A stretch of DNA of 34,421 nucleotides from Lachnospiraceae bacterium (GTDB lineage: Bacteria; Bacillota; Clostridia; Lachnospirales; Lachnospiraceae). The stretch lies in the NCBI GenBank assembly GCA_024684355.1, contig JAIKXA010000031.1, positions 1 to 34,421 of the forward strand. The letters are read 5' to 3'. How positions within the stretch are numbered: the stretch's first letter is position 1; each line of letters starts with the position of its first letter. Positions 23,471 to 28,072 of this stretch are shown piece after piece. The notes under the pieces are model-generated. The model made no database searches, had not been told where the DNA came from, and was given only the letters and a program-made list of their open reading frames with translations. Position numbers and translations under genes: made by a program.

Positions 23471-24835
23471 ATGATTAATATATCTGAAGTTATAGAAACA
23501 AATGATATGATCCAGCATGAAAACCTCGATGTGCGTACTATCACGATGGGTATAAGCCTGTTTGACTGTATGGACAGCTCGCTGGAAGAGTGCAGTACAA
23601 AGATCTATGATAAAATATGCAAAAAAGCCGGTAAGCTTGTAGAGACAGGCGAACATATCTCACAAAGCTACGGTATTCCGGTAGTTAATAAACGTATCTC
23701 CGTAACACCTATTGCCACTGTTGGTTCTTCTGCGTGCAAAACAGAAGAAGATTATGTGAAGCTTGCGGAGACACTTGATAAGGCTGCTGAAAACGTCGGC
23801 GTCAACCTTATCGGCGGTTATTCGGCTATGCTTGCAAAGGGTAATACCGAAAAGGAAATGATATTCCTTAATTCCATTCCGGAGGCGTTAAAGCGCACTT
23901 CACGCGTATGCAGCTCTGTAAACGTGGGTTCTTCCAGAACAGGTATCAATATGGATGCTGTAAGACGTATGGGTGATATAGTGCTTGAAACAGCTTTAAA
24001 GTCACATGGTACGGAAAGCTTGGGAGCAGCAAAACTTGTTGTTTTCTGCAATGCTCCTGACGACAATCCTTTTATGGCCGGTGCTTTCCATGGTATCACA
24101 GAGGGAGAGTCTGTCATAAATGTAGGTGTAAGCGGCCCCGGTGTAGTTAAGAAGGCGCTTGAAGCTGCAAGAGGTGCTGATTTTGAAGTACTTTGCGAGA
24201 CTATTAAGAGGACTGCATTTAAGATAACACGTGTAGGACAGCTTGTTGCCCGTGAAGCAGCATCCATGCTGAATGTACCTTTCGGTATCGTTGATCTTTC
24301 GCTGGCACCTACTCCGGCAATAGGGGACAGTGTGGCAGAGATATTACAGGAAATAGGTCTTGAATATCCCGGCGCTCCCGGTACCACGGCTGCGCTTGCA
24401 TTACTTAACGACCAGGTTAAGAAAGGCGGAGTTATGGCCAGCTCATATGTTGGCGGTTTAAGCGGTGCTTTTATACCCGTAAGCGAAGATCAGGGTATGA
24501 TAGATGCTGTGGAAGCAGGTGCGCTTACACTTGAAAAGCTGGAAGCCATGACCTGCGTATGTTCTGTAGGACTTGATATGATAGCTATACCCGGCGATAC
24601 TCCTGCTGAGTCGGTAGCCGGTATTATAGCTGATGAGATGGCTATAGGTATGATCAATAATAAGACTACCGCTGTAAGGCTTATCCCCGCTATCGGTAAA
24701 ACAGTGGGTGATTCTCTTAATTTCGGCGGTCTGTTCGGCTATGCACCGGTAATGCCCGTAAACAGATTCTCATGTGAGAAGTTTGTAAACCGCGGCGGCA
24801 GGATACCTGCACCTATTCACAGTTTTAAGAACTAA
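23471..24835 (+). CDS. PFL family protein (UPF0210/DUF711)
   Basis: Full-length 454-aa ORF ([31 protein letters not shown]...[13 protein letters not shown]), the usual partner of the ACT protein. Confidence 0.94.
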
Positions 24836-25013
24836 AACTATTCGCAGCTAAATCTGTGGAAAGCAAAGCGCAAGCCTGCTTGCAGATTTGCTTATACACA
24901 GATTAAGCTACGAAAGCTGGGCAAAACTAACGAGTAAACAAAAGCCGCTTTAGCGGCGGCTTACGGCGGAGCCGGAAGGTTTATGAGTGGTTTTGTACAG
25001 CGGCGAATAGTTT
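24835..25013. repeat. Structured ~180-bp element with terminal inverted repeats and nested hairpins
   Basis: AAACTATTCGC (24835-24845) / GCGAATAGTTT (25003-25013) perfect 11-bp IR, extending to 15 bp with one mismatch; internal hairpin 24846-24909; second hairpin GCCGC-TTTA-GCGGC 24944-24957. Confidence 0.75.
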
Positions 25014-25037
25014 ATAACAAATATATGAGGACTAAAA

Positions 25038-26597
25038 ATGAGTGATTTTGACGATGATGATCTTGAGTTTGATGATGATCTCCCGGAACTTGAGCTCGCC
25101 GATCTGGACAGGATCGGAGCATCCGAAGCCGGAAGGTCTTATCACAAAAACGAGATCACAAAATATGAGCAGATGGATGATCCGGGTGATGTAAGTGACA
25201 TCGATGCTCTTATAGAATACGAAGCTATGCGCGCTCTTGATATAGAGGGTGAAGAAGCAGGTTCAGGTGAGCTCCTTTTATATAACGGAGACGATGCCGA
25301 GTATTTTGATTATACCGATGATGATTTCGAGGAAGATATGAAAAAGACAAAGAAAAAAGGCGGTAAAAAAGCCTTAAAGATCATACTCGGTATTGTGATA
25401 TTTATTTTGGCTGCCGCAGCGTTTCTGGCATTTACCAAACCCGGCAGAAAGATTGCATACCGTATTGCCGCTATCTGGGCACACGGACAGATGAACCAGG
25501 ATATAGATGAAGATCCGATACTGGTTGATAATTCCGGTGAATCCGGCAATATCGGAACGGAAACAGATCCATCCACTACTACAAAGGATCCGACGGACAT
25601 CCAGGATATTCCGGAAGATCTTGTGATAGATCCGGGTGAAGAAAATACAGTTATCGAAAAACTTCCCAGATCAGAGGATTATGTTAGAACATATCTGTTA
25701 TTCGGTGTTGAAAGTATTTATGTTGATGCCGACGGAAATATAAAGTTTGATACAAGCAGCGTTGGAAATACGGATGCGATCATACTGCTTTCCGTAAACA
25801 CAAAAGATAATTCCATCAAGCTTACATCGTTACTCAGGGATACTTATGTGGAGATACCCGGAGTTAAGGAAAGTGTTGACGGTATCCCGTACGGTAATAA
25901 GATCAACTCGGTATATGCAACCGGATACAGAACAGGAGAGACCACCGAAGAAAAGAAAAGAAACGGTGCGGAGCTTCTGATGAAAGTCATAGAGAACACC
26001 TATGATATAGATATTACAGGTTATGCATTTGTTAATTTCTCAAGCTTCGAAAAGATCATTGACAGACTTGGAGGCATAGACCTTCAGCTCGGTGAAAAAG
26101 AAGCTGCATATTTACGTACTACCAATTATATATCCAAGGAACAATACAGGACTGTTCAGGCGGGATGGAACCACATGAACGGCAATCAGGTACTTGGTTA
26201 CTGCCGTGTAAGAAAGGAAGTTACTCTCGGAGGAGCAAGCAACGATTACGGAAGAACACAGAGACACAGACGTGTTATCAATGCCGTTGTCCAGCAGTAT
26301 AAGAGTTTGAGCCTCACAAGCATGTATTCCGTCCTTAAAGACTGTCTGGGATATATAAATACCAATCTTACGGTAGATCAGTTATCAGAGTTATTGGAAA
26401 ACGTTGTTGAGAATAAAACCTTTACGATCAACCAGATGAGACTTCCTTCCGAAGAATTGTTTAAGGACAGTGGGAAAAAAGGAAAATATAACGGATATTC
26501 CAATATCACATATGCAATTGTGCTTGACGGTTATTTAGAGCAGAATATCAAAAAACTTCATCAGTTCGTATTTTTAGATGAAGAGGATCCTGCCTGA
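25038..26597 (+). CDS. LytR-CpsA-Psr (LCP) family protein with acidic cytoplasmic N-terminus
   Basis: LCP motifs YLLFGVES, TDAIILLSVNTKDNSIKLTSLLRDTYVEIPG, YAFVNFSSFEKIIDRLGGIDLQL, LGYCRVRKE..NDYGRTQRHRRVINAV. Confidence 0.95.
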   Translation: MSDFDDDDLEFDDDLPELELADLDRIGASEAGRSYHKNEITKYEQMDDPGDVSDIDALIEYEAMRALDIEGEEAGSGELLLYNGDDAEYFDYTDDDFEEDMKKTKKKGGKKALKIILGIVIFILAAAAFLAFTKPGRKIAYRIAAIWAHGQMNQDIDEDPILVDNSGESGNIGTETDPSTTTKDPTDIQDIPEDLVIDPGEENTVIEKLPRSEDYVRTYLLFGVESIYVDADGNIKFDTSSVGNTDAIILLSVNTKDNSIKLTSLLRDTYVEIPGVKESVDGIPYGNKINSVYATGYRTGETTEEKKRNGAELLMKVIENTYDIDITGYAFVNFSSFEKIIDRLGGIDLQLGEKEAAYLRTTNYISKEQYRTVQAGWNHMNGNQVLGYCRVRKEVTLGGASNDYGRTQRHRRVINAVVQQYKSLSLTSMYSVLKDCLGYINTNLTVDQLSELLENVVENKTFTINQMRLPSEELFKDSGKKGKYNGYSNITYAIVLDGYLEQNIKKLHQFVFLDEEDPA

Positions 26598-26620
26598 CCC
26601 CGTGTTTTAAGGAGCTTTAA

Positions 26621-28072
26621 ATGGAAGACAATAAAGAAGAGCTGGTATCTGCGGAAAAAGAAAACGATACCCCGGATGATACTGTGGTGGTTTCAGAAGA
26701 AATAAAAGATATTCCAGAACAAAATGAGCTTGAGTCGGAAAGTGATTTCGCCGATGAACTACTCGAGATGGAACATGAAGAAGCCGACAATGCTATTATT
26801 GAGGGTCTGGGAGACTCTATAAACAGACAGGTGGAGCTGGAGATGGATCCACTGGTACCCGATGGTCCGTCAGATGCACCGGACGGTCCGGGAAACGGTG
26901 AGCCTGAGCTAGAAGAAAAGAAAGAGAAAAAAGGAGTTTTAGGTTTTCTTGCTAAGATCCCCAAATGGATATACATCATGGCCGGGATAGCGTTATTCAT
27001 AGTATTGCTTGTAGTATTTTTGAATATCAGCGGACTTGGAGTAAAGCTTATCAGCTGGTTTATTGACAGCAACGTAAATCATGAGACGATAGATGCAAAT
27101 GTGGCTCCGGAACCTACGCTTCCGGAAGAGGATCTGAATAAGTTTAAGGATATGCTTACACCTATCCCCACACAGATCACCACACCCACTCCCGAACCTA
27201 CACAGGCCCCGCTGATGTTTGATAAAAAGATAATGAATATCCTATTGCTCGGTGTTGAGAATATAGATCCGGTAACAGGAAAGAGTCTTACGGGAAAAAC
27301 ATCCAGCAGAGGCAGGACGGACCTGATTGTTTTGCTAACGATCAACAGTGAAGATAAGACAGTTAAACTTACTTCTTTTATGCGTGATTGTTATGTAACT
27401 ATTCCGGGTAAGGAGAACAACAGAATAAATGCTGCTTATGCAAAGGGCGGCGTTGCTCTGTTATATGATACATTGGAGGCAAACTTCGGTATTGTTCCGG
27501 ATCATTATATACTGGTTAATTTTGAAGATTTCCGTACAGTTGTTGATTCAATTGGAGGAATAGATATTAAGCTTTCGAAGAAAGAAGCCGATTATCTTAA
27601 TAAGACCAATTATATATCACAGGAAGCAAACAGGAATGTAGTTGAAGGTCTTAACCATATGAATGGTGACCAGGCTTTGGGTTACAGCAGGATAAGGTAT
27701 GTTGCCACAAAGGGAAAAGAGAAAAACGACTTTGGACGTACCAACAGACATCGTGAAGTAATACAGGCGATCATTGCACAGTTAAAGAAACTTAACTATA
27801 TAGATCTTCTTAAAGTAGGTCTTGAATGTCTGCCGCTTGTTACAACTGATGCTGATGCCGAAGCAATAGAGAAATACACAAATATGGTCATGGCAATAGG
27901 TGTTACCGATATTGATATTCAGGAGTTCCGTGTTCCTCAGGACGGAACATACAAGTATCTTACCGTGGATAAGATGAGTGTTATCCAGATAGATATCGAG
28001 AAAAACAGGGACGCATTATGGAGATTTTTATATGGGGATTCTGAGGAGGAAGCAAGAAAGAAATTACAATAA
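26621..28072 (+). CDS. LytR-CpsA-Psr (LCP) family protein, tandem paralogue
   Basis: NILLLGVENID, RTDLIVLLTINSEDKTVKLTSFMRDCYVTIPG, HYILVNFEDFRTVVDSIGGIDIKLS, ALGYSRIRYV..NDFGRTNRHREVIQAI. Confidence 0.95.
   Translation: MEDNKEELVSAEKENDTPDDTVVVSEEIKDIPEQNELESESDFADELLEMEHEEADNAIIEGLGDSINRQVELEMDPLVPDGPSDAPDGPGNGEPELEEKKEKKGVLGFLAKIPKWIYIMAGIALFIVLLVVFLNISGLGVKLISWFIDSNVNHETIDANVAPEPTLPEEDLNKFKDMLTPIPTQITTPTPEPTQAPLMFDKKIMNILLLGVENIDPVTGKSLTGKTSSRGRTDLIVLLTINSEDKTVKLTSFMRDCYVTIPGKENNRINAAYAKGGVALLYDTLEANFGIVPDHYILVNFEDFRTVVDSIGGIDIKLSKKEADYLNKTNYISQEANRNVVEGLNHMNGDQALGYSRIRYVATKGKEKNDFGRTNRHREVIQAIIAQLKKLNYIDLLKVGLECLPLVTTDADAEAIEKYTNMVMAIGVTDIDIQEFRVPQDGTYKYLTVDKMSVIQIDIEKNRDALWRFLYGDSEEEARKKLQ

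Follow-up and report, generated by a model that had tools for sequence, protein, structure and literature searches.

The element at 24835-25013 of the window (by which we mean the whole analysed stretch of Lachnospiraceae DNA, 34,421 nucleotides long) is one copy of a previously unannotated, non-coding, apparently mobile repeat family, here named R1. We consider it likely that the copy is an old one and that R1 is a dispersed MITE-like family, non-autonomous and about 185 bp in length, that has kept its fold and is probably a distant relative of the Clostridiales-1 RNA; the family would have spread with a transposase acting in trans and would act as RNA in cis. R1 copies are dispersed, are present at a given site in some genomes and missing in others, maintain their fold and are placed preferentially in sense orientation at gene ends, immediately 3' of stop codons, terminators and tRNAs. 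The preliminary description had offered a small mobile element or a structured RNA as alternatives; R1 is a dispersed insertion and a conserved fold at once, and the two are not exclusive.

The window element and its fold

The element lies between two plus-strand genes and comprises a closing stem (P1), a long hairpin (P2) and a branched long stem (P3), as follows.

23471..24835, + strand: upstream gene, DUF711/UPF0210 ("PFL family", PF05167); the first base of the element falls within its stop codon
24835..25013, + strand: whole element, an R1 copy roughly 179 bp long, oriented like the flanking genes; fold z -7.4
24835..24845, + strand: P1 left arm, the left terminal inverted repeat AAACTATTCGC (inverted-repeat check, alignment, covariation)
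24846..24909, + strand: P2, long hairpin (folding, read-out copies, covariation)
24916..25001, + strand: P3, long stem with conserved domain and two apical hairpins (folding, covariation)
24930..24934, + strand: ACGAG, with UAAAC after it, making up the 5' side of P3's tandem G.A motif (mostly invariant columns)
24942..24962, + strand: first apical hairpin of P3, AAGCCGC-UUUA-GCGGC... (helix 6, double changes in 4 of 5 pairs)
24960..24979, + strand: second apical hairpin of P3, around CGGC-GGA-GCCG (helix 7, double changes in 7 of 7 pairs)
24984..24989, + strand: TGAGTG, with GUUUA before it, making up the 3' side of the same G.A motif (mostly invariant columns)
25003..25013, + strand: P1 right arm, the right terminal inverted repeat GCGAATAGTTT (inverted-repeat check, alignment, covariation)
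25038..26597, + strand: downstream gene, LytR-CpsA-Psr (LCP) family (PF03816), the first of two LCP genes

Re-reading the sequence confirmed the anatomy given in the preliminary description: the 11-bp terminal inverted repeats are perfect and extend to 15 bp with one mismatch, AGCTAAATCTGTG (24846-24858) pairs with CACAGATTAAGCT (24897-24909), the coordinates and pairings of the hairpin at 24942-24957 and of the nested helices are exact, and the left repeat includes the last A of the upstream TAA stop. Within the window the terminal 11-mer occurs at two places only, allowing up to one mismatch, and no ORF of at least 80 amino acids lies inside the copy, in keeping with the claim that the element is non-coding. 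Folding of 24833-25015 as RNA gave a single closed multi-branch structure, as had been predicted, with a minimum free energy of -80.2 kcal/mol versus a shuffled mean of -48.8 (sd 4.3); this corresponds to a z score of -7.4, and none of 200 shuffles was equally stable, confirming a real structure far above chance. The R1 covariance model matches 24832-25016 with 179 bits, and in relatives the closing stem frequently has two to three extra pairs outward of the limits first drawn. No Rfam family reaches its gathering cut-off anywhere in the window. The LCP gene begins 24 bp beyond the element; it belongs to a tandem pair (25038-28072) that has a 97-bp stretch in common at 70% identity.

Covariation was assessed in 70 R1 copies aligned to the model. 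Standard pairs fill 94.9% of pair cells, compared with 80.9% after shuffling and 34-43% with the partners slid, and both-sided changes occur in 41 of 52 pairs (483 cells), a level that no shuffle attains; these figures lean upward, the alignment being fitted to the structure and some copies being related. A MAFFT alignment of the seven copies in the window's own genome already contains 23 double-changed pairs. Double changes affect 10 of the 12 pairs of helix 1 (P1), in which the ACTAT core of the left arm is nearly invariant across the family, and 14 of the 15 pairs of helix 2 (P2). The P2 stem differs in sequence in almost every copy yet stays paired around a conserved GCAAGC/GCUUGC tip, and in some copies it has been replaced wholesale at the same site with pairing kept. 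At several shared sites the 3' domain falls at the 94th-99th similarity percentile and the 5' domain nearer the median, which suggests that P2 is replaced in place. Covariation among R1 copies thus supports the structured-RNA half of the earlier reading.

Orthologous copies can diverge slowly. The window element differs from those of G079 and G066 at 4 of 185 and 5 of 184 positions, while its 400-bp flanks diverge by about 20% from the orthologs (p 1.4e-12 and 2.4e-11). Of four element pairs shared by G066 and G079, a further two change more slowly than either flank (p 3e-5 and 6e-5), one gives no significant difference, and one (L125/L117) has a non-orthologous and unusable right flank, so the pooled divergence figure containing it is left out; in three of the pairs the closest 60 bp on the left are likewise unchanged. 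The slow divergence is therefore not uniform.

Distribution, insertion sites and placement of R1

The window's genome is a draft of 1.94 Mb in 182 contigs, 66% complete. A DNA search of it gave partial matches at six further places, all of which read out as full copies of 179-188 bp, and the covariance model found exactly these seven copies. R1 matches with E 0.001 or better occur in 20 of 24 genomes of the genus, with a maximum of 19 per genome; copy counts throughout this analysis include orthologs and are not independent. Copies measure 179-190 bp with terminal inverted repeats of 11-14 bp, and paralogs inside one genome are at most 90% identical, with no near-identical pairs. A strict P3 pattern run against an 84,980-species collection matched 41 contig stretches; the genomes concerned are all uncultured Lachnospiraceae or Clostridia, many of them with rumen or ruminant sample names, and, as far as seen, R1 is restricted to one genus of rumen Lachnospiraceae. 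Searches of the phage, plasmid and IMG/VR collections returned no R1 match and hence no sign of phage or plasmid carriage. No account of such repeats from Lachnospiraceae turned up in the literature searched. L278 (G073:C4:10514-11028) is a diverged R1 relative, arrayed in tandem as three units and with a fold of its own, suggesting that further R1-related subfamilies exist.

Of the 24 genus genomes, 23 have a readable spacer between the DUF711 and LCP genes. Three of them (G000, G079 and G066) hold the full element, G071 has it without the 5' half, and 19 have none, showing only the stop codon, a short spacer and the downstream start; this distribution marks the window element as an insertion. 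A TTTTAAGAACTAA-like flank also occurs in the empty relatives, indicating that the target there pre-existed. Full, short, scar, remnant and empty states were all encountered at other sites in the genus. The short forms either retain only P1 plus P2 or reflect slippage between GCGCAAGC repeats, L296 is a scar of fused arms GACTATCCGCGGATAGTC, and L279, L281 and L282 carry a tandemly duplicated 3' domain. Copies L040 and L121 follow the same gene with different start bases, which fits independent insertions. Dispersed copies, empty orthologous sites, terminal inverted repeats and internal-deletion derivatives together give good support to the MITE half of the earlier reading. The preliminary description had looked to dispersed copies with flanking duplications as the mark of a MITE: the copies were found, whereas duplications are only rarely recognisable in R1. 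A statistical search over many offsets and lengths in 65 copies gave no clear excess of a common target duplication, and recognisable ones are confined to two of the 65, L165 with an exact 8-bp repeat GTGAATAA on either side and L131 with an approximate 8-9 bp duplication relative to the empty sites L300/L301. Most insertions are probably too old for such a test, given that paralogs do not exceed 90% identity. No long-spaced pair of R1 ends that might hold a transposase partner was present in the two draft genomes scanned (G066 and G071).

Gene calling by codon usage placed 42 copies in sense with both neighbouring genes and 8 in antisense to both. For 34 of the 65 copies the stop codon of an ORF of at least 100 codons is only a few bases away, a T5 tract precedes 14 more, and tRNA 3' ends or T-box leaders come before others. 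The 5' flank shows a weak TTTG-tg-AAA consensus and the 3' flank little. Neighbouring genes are functionally unrelated and include fliE-fliF, rimP, valS and tRNAs, among others. At three loci (L110, L129 and L159) R1 separates a T-box leader, whose terminator it directly follows, from what appears to be a valyl-tRNA synthetase gene. Targeting of 3' ends is reminiscent of integron attC sites, group II introns and IS200/605-type insertion; these candidates were set aside, no such core, domain or protein having been seen.

Clostridiales-1 copies and their relation to R1

In relatives of the window's genome, the annotated copies of Clostridiales-1 RNA (Rfam RF01699) are miniature transposons (loci L209-L248, e.g. 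L216, L217, L220, L228 and L236). Weinberg et al. 2010 present this family as a probable RNA that is not cis-regulatory (PMC2864571). It is present in 32 of 60 genomes of the family Lachnospiraceae, frequently in dozens of copies; one genome has about 94 right and 118 left ends, and the copies in G038 have a median identity of 97%. Conserved sequence extends beyond the Rfam model and includes a 3' tail that is the second terminal repeat, so that the unit runs from GATRCCAGGGTCAAAAGG to CCTTTTGACCCYNACATC over 182-194 bp. Exact 7-bp flanking duplications accompany 23 of 32 such units, versus 1.7 expected as the control mean with re-paired flanks. Units of 69, 122 and 128 bp have the same ends and duplications as the full ones, and the inner RNA domain is therefore apparently dispensable for mobility. 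Loci L253-L266 of G038 comprise classes of 36, 69, 122 and 128 bp with Clostridiales-1 ends, the 36-bp class being a bare palindrome. A head-to-tail Clostridiales-1 array at L222 (G038:C4:37397-37842) repeats every 146 bp, adjacent units having a closing-stem arm in common. Three spans of 1.2-1.7 kb between Clostridiales-1 ends in G038 contained no transposase; judged by eye, their ORFs are amidohydrolase-like, GntR-like and aldolase-like. An Rfam "sRNA" family is thus tied to transposon biology, counting its hits as independent sRNA genes misleads, and covariation among dispersed copies must be read with care. The full, short, scar and empty sites also provide a natural series for the effects of folded repeats on operon expression.

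R1 falls outside Clostridiales-1 as Rfam defines it: RF01699 matches eight distinct R1 copies, in the correct strand orientation, with 22.9-35.7 bits, whereas its cut-off is 48. In the reverse direction the R1 model hits 3 of 17 Clostridiales-1 loci, in the right places and with E 0.006 or better. Both have a closing stem, a long variable hairpin with a GCUUGC tip and a stem with the tandem G.A motif (AYGAGUAA / UUAYGARU, at the same position in the two on reading by eye), both are dispersed in high copy number in the same host family, and they co-occur in the window's genome. These reciprocal sub-threshold scores and the shared architecture make common descent likely. Clostridiales-1 differs in its fourth stem, GGATTGC..GGGAGC..GCAATCC, which is absent from the R1 copies listed and in place of which R1 carries the two apical hairpins of P3; R1 also lacks the 3' tail, none of the R1 copies listed shows the GATRCCAGGGTCAAAAGG ... 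CCTTTTGACCCYNACATC ends with a 7-bp duplication, and R1 copies are old and diverged, unlike those of Clostridiales-1.

Competing explanations, proposed mechanism and known small repeats

The preliminary description had also suggested a leader RNA for the LCP operon, and in this or riboswitch form the proposal agrees with the position of the element just 5' of the LCP start codon. It is contradicted by the 19 genus genomes that are empty there and by the unrelated genes beside other copies; promoter-like sites in the region do not rise above chance, and we regard this explanation as extremely improbable. An ordinary bidirectional terminator between gene ends could account for the many copies at transcript ends, for the T-rich 3' arm of P2 (at least six T in eight nucleotides in 21 of 56 scorable copies) and for the terminator-like matches in the window, which exceed those of shuffles, chiefly on the minus strand. 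R1 goes far beyond a terminator in complexity, however, P3 with its conserved domain would have no explanation, a number of copies separate co-directional genes (fliE-fliF, for example), and the window copy has no proper plus-strand U-tract; we hold this explanation to be quite unlikely.

Two broader explanations each take up one half of the evidence, and we hold both to be possible, though rather less probable than the combined reading. A dispersed functional RNA gene or cis-regulatory RNA, moved by rare duplication or recombination and held at its sites by selection, would make the mobile look secondary; it draws on the compensatory changes in nearly every helix, the non-Watson-Crick tandem G.A motif kept in both R1 and Clostridiales-1, the bias to sense orientation and the 2-3% divergence of the window element against about 20% in its flanks. 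It sits poorly with the 19 empty sites, the functional disparity of the neighbouring genes, the decay of R1 copies into remnants and short forms and the transposon hallmarks of Clostridiales-1. Conversely, R1 could be a selfish MITE at the DNA level only, forming a DNA hairpin or cruciform, with the paired changes produced by templated quasi-palindrome correction and not by selection on RNA. P1 and P2 are near-perfect palindromes, stems at the same site have been swapped wholesale yet remain paired, slippage deletions (the L296 scar, L308) occur and small palindromic derivatives are found, and for P1 and P2 the paired changes may indeed have such an origin. The short apical helices covary too, however, the G.A motif of the internal loop and single-stranded segments are conserved, and the sense bias relative to neighbouring genes is strong, which speaks against this reading.

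We therefore favour an old, non-autonomous mobile element with a maintained RNA fold. The 7-bp duplications and the 36-194 bp size classes of Clostridiales-1 suggest that R1 would likewise have spread at the DNA level, through a transposase acting in trans on the terminal repeats. By analogy with ERIC, BOX and SPRITE, a transcribed copy would then act in cis, forming a compact structure between cistrons or in the 3' UTR that alters the processing, stability or attenuation of the upstream message, and R1 may persist through this effect; it is probably a cis RNA in read-through transcripts. Some copies may serve as terminators via the U-rich 3' arm of P2; for the window copy, with no U-tract on the sense strand, co-transcription with the DUF711 and LCP genes is more likely. 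A more speculative extension, to which we give low weight, would join R1 and Clostridiales-1 in one Lachnospiraceae superfamily of mobile elements that fold as RNA. In this view R1 enters at the 3' ends of transcripts and afterwards stays there as a functional module of cis RNA, its P2 hypervariable but always paired and its P3 conserved and possibly protein-binding. If so, a mobile element fits host genes with a standard RNA 3' module.

Set against bacterial MITEs, R1 stays below about 200 bp, has no coding capacity, bears terminal inverted repeats and occurs in dispersed copies at non-orthologous sites that are empty in relatives; the consistent association with a regulated gene expected of an LCP leader is not seen. 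The enterobacterial ERIC and YPAL elements are also non-autonomous and shorter than 200 bp, and co-transcribed ERIC copies change the stability of the upstream message (PMC2229807). The duplications of YPAL differ in size and occur at or beside dyad symmetries (PMC2229807), as R1 often adjoins terminators. BOX, RUP and SPRITE of Streptococcus pneumoniae are small, dispersed and folded if transcribed, BOX being modular with one module in variable copy number and SPRITE being enriched at gene 3' ends (PMC3049150); one BOX copy is composite with T-box RNAs (PMC3049150), and R1 copies likewise follow apparent valS T-box leaders. Host, ends and fold of R1 differ from those of ERIC and YPAL and from those of BOX, RUP and SPRITE, and in both cases the likeness drawn is one of description. 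Unlike BOX, RUP and SPRITE, R1 combines extensive compensatory change with a conserved internal-loop motif.
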